The position numbers were made by a program, and so were the translations under genes. From contig JACZYG010000001.1 in the NCBI GenBank assembly GCA_022571215.1, forward strand, positions 62,001 through 126,000: a stretch of DNA of 64,000 bases, read 5' to 3'. Position 1 is the stretch's first letter; each line of letters begins with the position of its first letter. Below, in pieces: positions 53,993-60,996 of the stretch. The stretch comes from Fidelibacterota bacterium (GTDB taxonomy: Bacteria > Fidelibacterota > SORT01). The notes under the pieces are model-generated. The model made no database searches and had not been told where the DNA came from. It was given only the letters and a program-made list of their open reading frames with translations.

Positions 53993-54883
53993 TTAACTTT
54001 TATGATTCTCAAGAACTCCCGACGCAAATCGGGCATGTGAATTATAGTCTGATTCTACCTCGATGTTCGAGTAACCCGCTTCAGATAACATTTTTTTAAG
54101 CGGTTCGGATTGCCTGTTACCGCCTATCTCTATCAGTATAATTCCGTTTTCATTTAAACGACCCATAGACAGATTTATAACTTCCTTGATCATATCAAGA
54201 CCATCTGAAAAGTCCGTAAGAGCAGATTCGGGTTCCCACTCTCTAATATCGGCAGAGAGAGAACTCATCGTGTCTAAAGAAATATAAGGGGGGTTTGAAA
54301 TTATCATATCATAACCGGAATGGCTAAATTCATCAGACTTGATGTTATGGACAAAGAACTCAATTCTGTCGGCAACCTCATTTTCTTCGGCATTTTGCTT
54401 CGCAACGTCTATTGCCTCTGCGCTCAGGTCTATAGCCGTAACTACCGCGGCAGGCAGGAATTTAGCTAGCGCAATTGCTATGTTTCCGCTGCCGGTGCCT
54501 ACATCAAGAATTTTGAGAGCCTTGCCGTTATGTGATTTTAACCGTTCGAGAGCGATCTCAACAAGCTGTTCCGTTTCAGGGCGTGGAATCAAAACGTTTT
54601 TATCAACGTTAAGTCTGATTCCCATAAAATCCACCTCACCTATTATATACTGAAGCGGTTTACTGTTCAATCGCTCTTTCAGCAGCGACCGATACTCGTC
54701 TGTTTCGGATTCAGTGAGCAGCCTGTCAAATTGTAGATAAAGTTCTATTCGTTTTTTACTAAGAGTATGCGCAAGCAGCCACTCGGCGTTCAATCGCGGC
54801 GATTCAATTCCTTTGGATTGCAAATATTCTGTTGATTTGTCGAGTATATCTTTGATGTTCAAAGCCTGAGCGTTCTTACCCAT
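53993..54883 (-). CDS. prmC: Release factor glutamine methyltransferase
   Basis: 296-residue SAM-dependent enzyme that methylates the GGQ glutamine of release factors. A helical N-terminal recognition domain is followed by the Rossmann fold (LDVGTGSGNIAIALA) and the catalytic NPPY in IISNPPYISLD near residue 195. It lies six bases after prfA, the standard arrangement, so substrate and modifier are made together. Complete; nothing unusual. Confidence 0.96.
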   Translation of the reverse strand: MGKNAQALNIKDILDKSTEYLQSKGIESPRLNAEWLLAHTLSKKRIELYLQFDRLLTESETDEYRSLLKERLNSKPLQYIIGEVDFMGIRLNVDKNVLIPRPETEQLVEIALERLKSHNGKALKILDVGTGSGNIAIALAKFLPAAVVTAIDLSAEAIDVAKQNAEENEVADRIEFFVHNIKSDEFSHSGYDMIISNPPYISLDTMSSLSADIREWEPESALTDFSDGLDMIKEVINLSMGRLNENGIILIEIGGNRQSEPLKKMLSEAGYSNIEVESDYNSHARFASGVLENHKS

Positions 54884-54888
54884 CAGAC

Positions 54889-55968
54889 TTATTCCGTTTT
54901 GTCTATCTCTTTAAGTAGTTTTGCTCTGAGTTCTCTTTTGTTCGCTTCTATCAATTCGTCCAAATCGCCGTCCATGATCGCATCAAGAGCGTATAAAGTA
55001 AGATTTATCCGGTGGTCTGTACACCTGTTCTGAGGGAAATTGTACGTTCGTACTTTCGCGCTTCGGTCTCCCGAGCCAATCATAAGCTTTCTTTCTGCGG
55101 CAATCTCGCTTTGCTGTTCTTCCTTCATAACTTCCATCAGTCTCGTCCTCAACACTTTTAACGCCTTAGCTTTGTTTTTGTGTTGTGATTTTTCATCCTG
55201 ACATGAAACCACAAGTCCCGTAGGCAGATGAGTTATCCTGACTGCCGAGTCTGTAGTGTTTACGCTTTGTCCGCCCGGTCCGGTTGATCTGTAAACGTCT
55301 ATTTTCAAGTCTCCCGGATTTATGTTAACGTCCACCTCTTCCGCTTCGGGAAGCACCGCCACTGAGGCAGCTGATGTATGGACACGTCCGCTCGTCTCCG
55401 TCACAGGAACTCGCTGGACCCGATGAACTCCGCTTTCAAATTTCAGGTCGCCATATGAACCCTCTGCTTCAACAGAAATTATTATCTCTTTATATCCGCC
55501 CATATTCGTCGGGCTGACGGAAAGCAACTCGAATTTCAATCCCTTTCGCTCAAGATATTTGGTGTACATTCGATACAGATCAGCGGCGAATATCGCAGCC
55601 TCATCTCCTCCTGTGCCTGCCCTGATTTCTATTATCGCTTTTTTTGAATCGTCGGGATCTTTAGGCAGGAGCAGTTCGCGTATCTCTTCTTCCAACGGTT
55701 TCAGATTATCTTTAAGTTCTTTAAGCTCTTCTTCAGCCAGTCCTTTTAGTTCTTCATCTTCACCATTTAGAATCTCCTCATCCTCACTAATACTCTTGCG
55801 AAGTTCTTCTATCTCATTCGCCAATTTCGCAATCGGAGCGATATCGCTTTGCTCTTTAGCAAGCATTCTAAATCGTTTGTTATCAGCCATCACCGCAGGA
55901 TCGCTCATGAGGGTAGTGAGTTCCTCATTCCGTTCTCGTACTTCTTCTATACTTAACAAAGAACTCAT
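54889..55968 (-). CDS. prfA: Peptide chain release factor 1
   Basis: 359 residues. RF1 type is shown by the PVT tripeptide ([15 protein letters not shown]) that reads UAA/UAG, and the peptidyl-transferase GGQ motif lies in [10 protein letters not shown]. The N-terminal helical domain is full length. Its start overlaps the end of the DUF1385 gene by four bases. The rho-rpmE-DUF1385-prfA-prmC order is conserved in several phyla. Confidence 0.98.
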
Positions 55969-56924
55969 TGTACCGTATCAGCCTCATATTCATCGCCGAT
56001 ATATTTCTTGTAATCCACGCCCAATGCGGATTTCAGCGCCTCGGCGGCTACTTCAAGCTGCATATCATCAGGTTCTTTGGTTGTCAGTCGTTGTAACCAC
56101 AAACCGGGCGCGACAAGCACTCTCCCTACCGCCGTGGAACCGTATCGCCCTGAAAGTTTAATCGCTTCATAACCCAATCCGGCAACAAACGGTATCATAG
56201 GAAGATGTGTTAGCAGTCTCATCCCAAGGGATATTGAGCCGAGATAGTTAAGTATGATAGAATCAATAAGAGCAAAAACAAAAATTGATACCAACATGAC
56301 TATAAGCAGAAAACTTGTTCCGCATCTTGGATGGAACCGAATAAATTTCTTTGCCTCGGAGGGCAGCAGCTGGCAGCCTCCTTCAAAAGCGAAGATCATC
56401 TTGTGCTCCGCGCCGTGATATCTAAAGAGAATTTTTATATCTTCCATCAAAGATATTGCCCCAATATAACCGAGGAAGAGTGTAATGCGTATCGCTCCGG
56501 ATATAAGATTAAATGAAATCGCATCTTTTTCAATTTCAAAAAGTTTTGTCGTCACCACAAGAGGCAGCACAAAAAATATCCCCAGTCCAACCGCAAGAGC
56601 AAAAAACAACGAAGCTGCTTTCGCTAAACTGCCGGGCTTTGAGTCAACTTTGTCCGGTTCAATATCTTCCATGCTCTTATCGGCTGACCATTGTAACGTG
56701 GCGATGCCAATCTTCAATGTCTCAAATAACGCTATTATTCCACGTAAAACCGGTATGTTGAGGGATTTATGCTTCAGAAGAATTGATTGAAATTCATGTC
56801 GCTCAGTCTCTATCGTTCCATCTGCCCTGCGCACTGATGTTGCATACGCGCCGGGTGCTCTCATCATGATGCCCTCAATTACCGCCTGACCGCCTACAAG
56901 TATCTTTTTCTTTTTTTCTGCCAT
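55965..56924 (-). CDS. DUF1385-family membrane protein
   Basis: 319 residues. The opening [19 protein letters not shown] is the DUF1385 hallmark. The N-terminal 70 residues are soluble and several membrane helices follow (about 100-130, 145-165, 205-240). [11 protein letters not shown] and [13 protein letters not shown] are conserved family motifs with His and Cys that could bind a metal. Function is not established. It lies between rpmE and prfA as in many genomes, suggesting a translation-linked or housekeeping role. Confidence 0.93.
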
Positions 56925-56989: not shown

Positions 56990-57205
56990 TTATGCTTCGG
57001 ATTCTTCTTTTATGCCATATTTTTGCCTGTACTTCTCAACTCTACCCGCAGAGTCAACCAACTTCTGTTTCCCCGTGAAAAACGGGTGGCATGCGGAACA
57101 GATCTCGACATGCAGATCGCCGGCAGTCGAGCGTGTTTGGAATGTGTTCCCGCAGGCACAACTAACGGTAGTTAAAGTGTATTCGGGATGAATATCTTTT
57201 TTCAA
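56990..57205 (-). CDS. rpmE: 50S ribosomal protein L31
   Basis: 71-residue ribosomal protein. The opening [19 protein letters not shown] and [20 protein letters not shown] are standard L31. It is the zinc-binding (Cys-containing) form: C16, C18, C36 and C39 (SCACG and CSAC). Start TTG with GGAGG six bases upstream. Followed by a terminator hairpin. Confidence 0.98.
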
Positions 57206-57221
57206 TTCAGACCTCCAAATT

Positions 57222-58412
57222 TTAATTCAAAAGGTTCAGAGCTTCGCCAATCCGCTCTATGCCTTTTTCAATTTCTTCTTTTGGCACGGCAAATGAGATC
57301 CTGACATTATTGTCCGAACCAAATGCTACGCCGGGTATAACAACAACCTTCGCATGTTCTATCAAAAATTCGGCAAACTCGACAGAACCGTTTATGCTCT
57401 TACCATTTACCGACTTACCGTAATGAGCGCTTACATCGGGGAAAATAAAAAAAGAACCTTCCGGTTTGTTTACTTTTATCCCCGGCAGGTTACTCAAACC
57501 TTCATAGACCACATCTCTGCGTTCCCAATATTTATCCCTCATCATTTCGGCTTCGGACTGATCACCGTTCAAAGCTCCTACAGATGCCTTTTGGGCGATC
57601 GAATTAGCGTTTGAAGTGACCTGTGATTGAATTTTACTCATCGCCTTAATCAACTTTTCTGCTCCCGCCGCAAATCCTATCCTCCAACCCGTCATAGAGT
57701 AAGTTTTCGACATTGAGTTAACGGTCAGAGTCACTTCGTTTCCGCCTTCATATGCGGCAATGCTCTTATACTTATTCTCAAAGGTTATACGCTCGTAGGT
57801 TTCATCGGAGATTATCAGTAAATCTTTCTCCCGCGCCGTTTTAATCACTTCAGCTATAAAATCATCGTCCAATAAGGAACCTACAGGATTCGACGGCGAG
57901 TTTAAGATCACCGCAACTGTTCTATCCGTCACATATTCTTCAAACGGTTTCAGGGTACGGCGATAGTCTGCCTTAGGGTCAAGCTCCGCAAACACGGGTT
58001 CACCATCCGCCATCTTCACCATCTCCGGGAACGAAACCCAATATGGAGAGAGAATGATAACTTCATCGCCCTCATTCACAACAGCCATCATTGCGTTATA
58101 GATAGCATGCTTGGCTCCGCATGAAACTATTATTTGCTCTGGAGAATAATTCAAATCGTTATCACGTTTTAGCTTCAAGGCGATAGCTTCTTTTAACTCC
58201 GGAATTCCGTCTACTTTTGTGTATTTGGTGTAGCCATCCGCCATTGCCTTGGTTGCAAGGTCTCTAATATATTCGGGTGTGGGAAAATCAGGTTCTCCCG
58301 CTCCTAAATCAACTATATCAATACCTTGCGCCTTTAAATCTTTTGCAAGAGCCATCACCGCCATCGTTTTAGACGGTTGAATTTTGTCCATTCTATCAGA
58401 TAATTTAACCAT
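57222..58412 (-). CDS. Class I aspartate-type aminotransferase
   Basis: 396-residue PLP enzyme. The PLP lysine is in [17 protein letters not shown], with [14 protein letters not shown] at the N-terminus and [11 protein letters not shown]. The sequence fits prokaryotic (type Ib) aspartate / prephenate aminotransferases. Substrate could be aspartate or an aromatic or branched amino acid. A GAGG sits four bases before the ATG. It lies between the Cas6b-like gene and rpmE on the same strand, 16 bases before rpmE. Confidence 0.93.
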
Positions 58413-58481: not shown

Positions 58482-59141
58482 TTATCTTTTAGGCGTGATA
58501 CTTCCGAAACCTCTGTCGGATAAATTGCCTATTCCTAAGTGCTCGGGGATATGAAAATTGATCTCAAACTTTCCTACAAATCCTGAAGTGGATGTACCGA
58601 GTTTGAAAGATTGAATCTCGTTTAACTCGTGCTTCACCCTAATTCTGGAAGCGATCTCTATATCGAATGACCTTGCGAAACCTAATATATTTCTGATAAT
58701 CATCTTAGAAAGCGCGCTATATCGTTCCTGTGTGTACAAGTATTTAAATTTTGCGTAATCTTCCTCATTCAGAGCCAACCAGGGAGTTTCAAACTCATAT
58801 TTATTACGTTTAGCAGTTACTCCAACCTCAGTTTCAAGGTCTTTTTCAATGATTTCTATTACTTTGTATTTTTTATGCCCCAAATAGAGTTCGCTCAGCT
58901 CGGGTAAAATTTCCTTAAGAGCATCTACGCCATCTTCCATAGCAAATATAAATGGCGCATCATTAATTATTTTATATTGCAGCAAAGAGCTATATATTTT
59001 TCTATCTTTTGAATTTTCAGAAAGCTTCGCTAAGGCACTGTCAGCATATTGCTTGAGCATAAATGCGCGGAAGTGATTGCTCGAAATCTTATTTGCTGAA
59101 TCAATTTTGATCCTCGTAATCGAAGTACGAATAGATTTCAT
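58482..59141 (-). CDS. Orphan Cas6b-like CRISPR RNA endoribonuclease-fold protein
   Basis: 219 residues with the Cas6b layout. There is a short N-terminal RAMP-like strand-helix region, LLQYKIINDAPFIFAMEDGVDALKEI-type middle, TPWLALNEEDY, and the C-terminal glycine-rich loop HLGIGNLSDRGFGSI, matching the G-x-G-x5-GFG pattern of Cas6. Cas6 proteins cut CRISPR precursor RNA. No CRISPR array or other cas gene is visible in the window. By eye, the segment before QYKII has no histidine where archaeal Cas6b carries catalytic ones, so activity is uncertain. GGAG lies seven bases before the ATG. It stands between rho (92 bases) and an aminotransferase gene (69 bases) on the same strand. Confidence 0.72.
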   Translation of the reverse strand: MKSIRTSITRIKIDSANKISSNHFRAFMLKQYADSALAKLSENSKDRKIYSSLLQYKIINDAPFIFAMEDGVDALKEILPELSELYLGHKKYKVIEIIEKDLETEVGVTAKRNKYEFETPWLALNEEDYAKFKYLYTQERYSALSKMIIRNILGFARSFDIEIASRIRVKHELNEIQSFKLGTSTSGFVGKFEINFHIPEHLGIGNLSDRGFGSITPKR

Positions 59142-59233: not shown

Positions 59234-60493
59234 CTAATTCCAATCGCTCATAGATGCAAGGAATTCTTTGTTGTTCTTTGTTCTCTTCAAACGGGTCAAT
59301 AGAAATTCCATTCCTTCTACCGAACTGAGGTCATTTAAATATTTCCTCAATATCCATACCCTACTAAGCTCTTCTTTGGAAAAGAGCAGTTCCTCTTTTC
59401 TTGTACCCGACCTATTTAAATCAATAGATGGATATATTCTCCTGTCACTTAGTCTCCTATCAAGAACGAGTTCCATATTACCCGTACCCTTAAATTCTTC
59501 GAAAATAACGTCATCCATTCTGCTTCCGGTATCGATCAAAGCCGTTGCCATTATTGTGAGGCTTCCCCCGCCTTCAACATTCCTTGCCGCGCCGAAAAAC
59601 CGTTTTGGTCTATGTAATGCGTTAGAATCCACGCCACCTGAGAGTATTTTCCCGCTATGAGGCACGACCGTATTATGCGCTCGAGCCAAACGGGTGAGGC
59701 TGTCCAAAAGGATCACTACGTCTGTGCCGTACTCTACTAATCTGCGTGATTTTTCAAGTACCATTTCCGCCACTTGTACGTGTCTTTCCGGCGGCTCATC
59801 AAACGTTGAAGAGATCACTTCCGCATCAACGGACCTTTGCATATCCGTTACCTCTTCAGGTCGTTCATCAATGAGAAGAACAATCAGTTTTATCTCAGGA
59901 TGATTACGGGTGATACTGTTTGCCATTTTTTGCAGAAGCATTGTTTTACCCGTTTTCGGCTGTGCTACAATAAGTCCGCGTTGTCCCTTCCCGATTGGTG
60001 TTAGCAGATTCATTATTCTCATCGAGTAGGCATTCGGTTCCGCTTCCAAGTCTATCATTTCGGTAGGATATAGAGGAGTCAGATTATCGAATCTAAGAAC
60101 TTCTTTTGCTTTTTCCGGACTTTCGCCGTTGACTGATTGAACCTTTAACAACGCAAAAAACCGTTCGTTATCTTTTGGCGGCCGAATCTGACCTGCAACC
60201 GTTACGCCCGTTTTCAGATTGAAACGTTTTATCTGAGAAGGAGATATATAAACGTCATCCGGACCCGGCATATAATTATAGTCCTGTGAACGTAAAAATC
60301 CGTATCCGTCAGGTAATATTTCAAGTACTCCGTCCGAAAAAATCTGTCCGTTTTTTTCGGAATCTGCTGCGAGAATCCCGAAGATCAGCTCCTGTTTTTT
60401 CAAGTCGGACGCATCCTTCAATTTGAAGTCTTCCGCGATCTTCGTTAGATCCGGTAATTTCATTGATTGTAATTTTTTTAAATCGAGTTCCAT
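59234..60493 (-). CDS. rho: Transcription termination factor Rho
   Basis: 419-residue RNA helicase. The N-terminal domain, RNA-binding cold-shock fold ([28 protein letters not shown]) and C-terminal ATPase (Walker [10 protein letters not shown], Walker [26 protein letters not shown]) are complete. The P-loop has Gln and Thr at two positions where E. coli has Pro and Ala. A weak hairpin (59206-59222) lies just after the stop on the minus strand. AAGGAAGGA precedes the ATG. First gene of the rho-...-prmC run. Confidence 0.98.
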
Positions 60494-60996
60494 TGATTCC
60501 TTCCTTTAAAGAGATATATTTGGATTTAAATGTGGTGGCACTGATTCGTGCCTATTGTTCCTTTTAACTAATATTCAGATTTTGGTGGTGAAATTTGATT
60601 AGCCTTTCGGCACATATCCCCTAATTAAATCGTTATCCCCTTTCTATTTTTTTTAATTTTTGCCCTGATCGGGTTAATTTATGTAAGTTACTCTTAAATC
60701 ACTGAAGACAAAACTTTTTAGCAGTGGTAACTTATTCATAATTAATTGGAAGTCAAGAAAAAAATTGTTTCTACCGATCTCACACTGAATAATTACTCTG
60801 CCATTTCAGTAAAAGCGTCTTTCATGTCAAGGAATTTTCATCAACTTCCAATTGCTGTAAATATATTCTTCCATTTTATACGTAATATAGACAACGATAG
60901 TTTCATATTTAATTCACAGGTCATCCCATTATAAAATCGAGCTTTGTATATTGGTGTTATCGGATTTAAATTACAGCTCTAATTAGGAGAACAGCT
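60494..60996. other. Divergent intergenic region between rho and a phosphatase gene
   Basis: About 500 AT-rich bases separate the start of rho (minus) from the plus-strand phosphatase gene. I see no gene: the 62-codon plus frame at 60746-60934 lacks a ribosome-binding site. Promoters for both directions probably lie here, but I found no strong -35/-10 pair by eye. A rho leader with regulatory function is possible. Confidence 0.4.

Follow-up and report, generated by a model that had tools for sequence, protein, structure and literature searches.

The window, that is, the whole 64-kb stretch of DNA analyzed here, comes from a genome of the phylum "Candidatus Neomarinimicrobiota" (Fidelibacterota, SAR406). 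At positions 58482 to 59141, on the minus strand, an open reading frame with an ATG start encodes a product of 219 amino acids. It lies in a row of genes on a single strand, in the order rho, Cas6b-derived gene, aminotransferase, rpmE, DUF1385 gene, prfA, and prmC. The features are listed below with their evidence in parentheses.

60537..60552 (-), GGCAC-GAATCA-GTGCC, a short inverted repeat of the rho leader with a perfect 5-bp hairpin (tentative; nothing indicates a role as target)
59234..60493 (-), rho, transcription termination factor, immediately upstream with a gap of 92 nt (Pfam Rho_N, Rho_RNA_bind, ATP-synt_ab)
58482..59141 (-), lone, histidine-less Cas6b-derived gene immediately 3' of rho (Cas6b_N and Cas6b_C, match to 4z7k, predicted fold with a TM score of 0.85, rho-adjacent orthologues phylum-wide)
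58989..59027 (-), segment equivalent to H38-x-H40...Y47 of M. maripaludis Cas6b, codons of residues 39 to 51, without histidine (alignments)
58503..58535 (-), glycine-rich C-terminal loop G-x-G-x5-G-F-G, kept, codons of residues 203 to 213 (G205, G211, and G213 invariant in rho-linked and CRISPR-type Cas6b)
57222..58412 (-), class I/II aminotransferase, the next downstream gene (Pfam Aminotran_1_2)
56990..57205 (-), rpmE, ribosomal protein L31 (Pfam Ribosomal_L31)
55965..56924 (-), DUF1385 protein (Pfam DUF1385)
54889..55968 (-), prfA, peptide chain release factor 1 (Pfam PCRF, RF-1)
53993..54883 (-), prmC, release factor methyltransferase (Pfam PrmC_N)

The Pfam domains and predicted fold identify the window protein as a genuine homologue of Cas6b. 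It scored 96.1 bits with Cas6b_C (cut-off, 39.4) and 42.8 bits with Cas6b_N (cut-off, 25), 155 and 132 bits with the PADLOC profiles for Cas6 and Cas6b, respectively, and an E value of 7e-23 with the Cas6b structure 4z7k; no NCBIfam model matched it. An AlphaFold model built on an alignment of 41 sequences (mean pLDDT, 90.6; pTM, 0.86) had 4z7k_A as its top structural match in the PDB (TM score, 0.85; E value, 1e-19), and nearly all of the other strong matches were Cas6 or other CRISPR RAMP proteins. The model thus satisfied the criterion of a tandem RAMP fold like that of solved Cas6b. The initial annotation had described a Cas6b-like protein with a C-terminal G-x-G-x5-GFG loop in line with rho, an aminotransferase, rpmE, and prfA, and had named the absence of a RAMP fold as a refutation; both descriptions held (the second by Pfam searches on the neighbors), and the predicted fold did not refute it.

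A single-sequence search of genome contigs gave no match, and an alignment-based search gave 80 loci. Across 245 genomes of the phylum, the family PF17262 matched in 130, and a profile of the proteins encoded next to rho split these into two classes without overlap, a rho-linked type (at least 219 bits) and a CRISPR type (at most 167 bits). The rho-linked type occurred in 126 of the 245 genomes, i.e., about half, and in 53 of the 94 genomes of best quality, and four genomes had only the CRISPR type. The latter includes ordinary examples, such as that of L080 (genome G218), located in a type I-B locus with Cas1, Cas3b, Cas5b, Cas7b, and Cas8b, and those of L074 and L082, which adjoin an array. 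Outside the phylum, eight of 147 genomes were positive for Cas6b, all with the motif HxH and none with the gene adjoining rho in the stretch retrieved; eleven further Cas6b proteins from other phyla all had HxH too, and rho was not nearby.

The loci compared were taken from about 20 families of the phylum. The arrangement of rho followed by this gene recurs in about 20 families, which places it far beyond chance. Among 86 distinct rho-linked proteins, 85 were encoded immediately behind a rho gene of the same orientation, at a median distance of 36 nt, and the sole exception sits at a contig end, so that the criterion of conserved genetic linkage with rho was satisfied. The aminotransferase came next in 89 of 108 loci, often overlapping the Cas6b-derived gene; some of the remaining loci were truncated by contig ends. 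The block downstream was wholly or partly lost or moved in families f4, f7, f12, and f20 and in f25 g68, and the gene was still found behind rho. These five lineages include G007, a closed genome with one contig of 2,788,509 bp, in which a prenyltransferase-like gene and dnaE come after the rho-linked gene. The reverse arrangement, with the gene beside rpmE/prfA and away from rho, was seen at none of the loci examined. Relatives that lack the gene, in f5, f13, f21, f22, f30, and G196, display an empty site, where rho is directly followed by the aminotransferase, and a profile search at maximum sensitivity around rho found no divergent Cas6b copy behind rho in genomes without the gene.

No CRISPR-like repeat array was found by a repeat scan, limited to the window, and profile searches of the whole source assembly (2.56 Mb, 96.7% complete) found no Cas1, Cas7/DevR, RAMP, or Cas3-HD families. 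Within these scopes, the earlier claim that no array or other cas gene lies nearby held. Control genomes gave positives in each of these searches. Cas7, RAMP, and Cas3 were also unfound in two better relatives from the family of the window, in G190 and G114, and in the closed G007, where Cas1 was likewise unfound. Across the phylum, Cas1 was present in 12 of the 126 genomes with the rho-linked gene versus 19 of the 119 without it (Fisher p, 0.18), so that its presence shows no positive link to that of CRISPR. Five genomes (G010, G011, G075, G088, and G184) keep both the rho-linked copy and a CRISPR-type Cas6b elsewhere. The rho-linked gene is thus independent of CRISPR and satisfies the criterion of a solo Cas gene, being conserved, under dN/dS values mostly of 0.01 to 0.11, and without Cas1 in 114 of 126 carriers.

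The rho-linked clade has a single origin. In the tree, its members form one side of a branch that separates them from all CRISPR-type Cas6b, within and outside the phylum, with a support of 99/93. Mapping gene presence on the rho tree required eight changes, which fits a single early gain followed by several losses, including that in the small-genome family f13. The gene was likely lost several times while rho stayed (f13, f21 to f23, and parts of f4 and f30); given these probable losses, it is not essential to Rho and is therefore better seen as accessory than as core. Pairwise protein distances correlated with the corresponding distances for rho (Pearson coefficient, 0.82), prfA (0.82), and the aminotransferase (0.78). 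Of the 17 close pairs that could be measured, 16 had a core-domain dN/dS ratio of 0.01 to 0.11 and one had 0.17, near the values of rho (0.001 to 0.19) and mostly under those of the aminotransferase (0.01 to 0.22). In relatives with measurable dS, the gene is thus under strong purifying selection and is a working gene. The window's own family yielded no value because dS was saturated; within the clade this family diverges the most, and several of the newly conserved residues are missing from it.

Two histidines have been implicated in catalysis by Cas6b of Methanococcus maripaludis (PMC3652601, PMC3945376). The latter paper names His38 and Tyr47, and we take His40 to be the second catalytic histidine. 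In the alignment, neither histidine was present in any of the 87 rho-linked sequences, as the initial annotation had suspected for the window protein, while among 27 full-length CRISPR-type sequences His38 was found in 26 and His40 in all (L079, split in the assembly, lies outside this set). HxH was accordingly complete in 26 of the 27, the exception being L078, with NNH. The column of Tyr47 was mostly Phe in rho-linked proteins (54/87), with Tyr kept in 19 of the 87; the window protein has a Tyr near this site, where the register of the loop is uncertain, and residues 41 to 50 are the lowest-confidence block of its model (pLDDT, 58). Since the absence of the histidines is common to every lineage, it is most simply explained by one loss at the base of the clade. 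Inferred from sequence, without biochemistry, cleavage of the Cas6 type has likely been lost. This is no proof, because the Cas6 of Sulfolobus cleaves without a histidine (PMC3652601). Judging from sequence and predicted fold, the protein is Cas6b-derived, yet the name "Cas6 endoribonuclease" is unwarranted.

The presumed RNA surface appears, from the sequences, remodeled rather than erased; RNA binding itself is an inference. Columns R25, K57, R140, R146, R210, G205, G211, and G213 are kept in rho-linked proteins, and basic columns have been gained at positions 10, 30, 46, 53, 133, and 170. Lys181 of CRISPR Cas6b has become mostly Asp and Lys/Arg206 of the glycine-rich loop Asn, and since these two basic positions are reversed or lost, RNA recognition must have at least changed.

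Most distinct rho-linked proteins (62) are long forms of about 290 to 380 amino acids with a tail rich in K/R and D/E, which is absent from the window protein, a short form. In all 62, the tail ends with FNxxxYHKKQH or a near variant. In one long form that was modeled, pLDDT was under 50 along most of the tail. The tails are of low complexity and contain three conserved short motifs, DVPKPRR, SEEFDIEE, and the terminal FNxxxYHKKQH (L112, L119, and L127 are examples of both). In the 18 genomes searched, the terminal pattern never appeared more than once in a genome, and only at the site of the rho-linked gene, which ruled out a tail motif shared with other proteins there.

The rho leader was considered as a candidate RNA target. 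In leaders of the f18 clade (e.g., L096, L113, L123, and L126), the putative rho promoter is closely followed by a short stem-loop with changes that appear compensatory. A like hairpin is visible by eye in the leaders of f13, a family without the Cas6b gene, and the phylum as a whole gave no clear signal (mean z of -0.62 in gene-positive versus -0.46 in gene-negative leaders). With no clear difference between the two sets, the leader hairpin was not adopted as the target.

The reading that we prefer, with a confidence that does not go beyond an even chance, is that of an exapted, probably noncleaving, Cas6b-derived RNA-binding protein functionally tied to Rho, in which both the RNA binding and the tie to Rho are inferred. 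In this scenario, a Cas6b gene would have lodged once, early in Neomarinimicrobiota, between rho and the next gene of the operon; the HxH pair that cuts CRISPR repeats would then have been lost, and the gene would have been inherited vertically as a housekeeping protein. RNA binding may have been kept through the retained RAMP cleft and the glycine-rich loop, aided in many lineages by the long charged C-terminal tail, with no cleavage through the Cas6 mechanism. The protein would act with Rho, most likely as an accessory RNA-binding factor that helps in choosing, blocking, or promoting sites of Rho-dependent termination. This last step rests on genome context alone, any effect on Rho is unassayed, and it is possible that the operon neighborhood reflects mere coexpression. 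In a bolder version, a CRISPR ribonuclease was turned into a dedicated Rho partner, a histidine-less Cas6b that would attach to nascent RNA and direct where Rho terminates; this seems to us somewhat less probable than its negation, and against a Rho partner it must be said that no RNA target, binding data, or contact with Rho is known. The initial annotation had proposed a repurposed RNA-binding or RNA-processing factor, which is strongly supported by the one origin, vertical inheritance, absence of HxH, purifying selection, and lack of Cas1 in most carriers, always with RNA binding as an inference.

Several other explanations deserve consideration. The protein could be an autoregulator that recognizes the leader on the mRNA of the rho operon and thereby sets the level of Rho and of the downstream genes, with no contact with Rho itself. 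Short RNA hairpins are common ligands of Cas6 proteins, and the stem-loops of the f18 clade and the perfect hairpin in the window leader would suit such a role, but gene-positive leaders showed no clear hairpin excess and the Cas6b-less f13 has a similar hairpin, so we consider it unlikely. Equally doubtful is a ribonuclease with a new Lys/Arg active site that processes cellular RNA, e.g., the rho-rpmE-prfA transcript. In its favor, a histidine-less Cas6 can cut (PMC3652601), and newly conserved Arg residues appear near the old active site, in the columns at positions 46 (82/87) and 53 (81/87) of the window protein. However, these residues are absent from the window's own family, and the joint loss at the clade base of HxH and, mostly, Tyr47, never regained, is what loss of cleavage would predict.

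A factor for the ribosome or translation termination, tied to rpmE, prfA, and prmC instead of rho, would account for the presence downstream, in most genomes, of the aminotransferase, rpmE, (DUF1385,) prfA, and prmC. It is improbable, though, given that broken operons (f4, f12, and g68 of f25) keep the gene with rho and away from rpmE/prfA, and no locus examined displays the opposite. Least credible of all, and in our opinion very unlikely, is a Cas6b that serves a distant CRISPR locus or a decaying CRISPR relic. The protein is a real Cas6b homologue, and some carriers do have Cas1 (12/126), but Cas1, Cas3, Cas7, and RAMP were unfound in the source genome and in G007, and genomes with both types keep a separate CRISPR-type Cas6b. 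Decay is excluded because dN/dS in relatives is far below 1. The service in trans that had also been proposed initially is thus contradicted for the source genome, where no cas genes were found, and it is further countered by the five relatives that retain the rho-linked copy alongside a CRISPR-type Cas6b.

The rho-linked proteins were compared with the closest known systems. They share with the type I-B Cas6b of M. maripaludis (4z7k/4z7l) the two-domain RAMP fold, about 27% identity, the glycine-rich loop, and both Pfam domains, but they lack H38/H40 and usually Y47, have no array or cas neighbors, lie behind rho, are inherited vertically, and in the long forms carry the extra charged tail. 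The CRISPR-linked Cas6b of Neomarinimicrobiota (e.g., that of G218) are homologous, from the same phylum, and in five cases from the same genome, but they keep HNH (except L078), form a separate clade, and lie away from rho. The Cas6 homologues of Pyrococcus (PDB 3qjj and 3ufc) are noncatalytic; they have the Cas6 fold and bind RNA without cutting it, but the RNA consists of CRISPR repeats in CRISPR-bearing archaea, whereas the window protein is Cas6b derived and belongs to a housekeeping operon outside CRISPR. Sulfolobus Cas6 Sso1437 (PMC3652601) also lacks the active-site histidine, but it belongs to a CRISPR system, where a Lys/Arg network still enables it to cleave repeats. Other cas-family genes outside CRISPR loci are known, namely solo-Cas4 and further exapted Cas parts (PMC5704561, PMC8730458); a solo Cas6 linked with a housekeeping gene is not mentioned in the relevant sections of the review of CRISPR exaptation (PMC8730458). 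The open-access literature searched contained no description of the rho-linked Cas6b of Neomarinimicrobiota, although a report elsewhere cannot be excluded.

What is new here, as not found in that literature, is the turning of a Cas6, after a single loss of its histidines, into a strongly constrained, vertically inherited housekeeping gene; if true, it would be the first such case for a Cas6, as far as the literature searched shows, and the bolder reading, if true, would amount to a new class of termination factor. In a large marine phylum, the finding points to an unstudied protein that is inferred to bind RNA and to be linked with Rho, and orthologous empty sites and CRISPR-type homologues in the same genomes provide a natural experiment. 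Annotation that relies on nothing but Cas6 models would place CRISPR components in genomes that have none.

Two minor observations concern other genes of the phylum. A second kind of lone Cas6b, CRISPR type by the tree and with the first catalytic His replaced by Asn (NNH), is found at L078:6744-7397 (G088:C18) near a GMP synthase gene, and the two neighbors tested had no PADLOC match. A Cas1 match at G206:C51:2218-3054 lies within an open frame of 943 amino acids, possibly a fusion protein.
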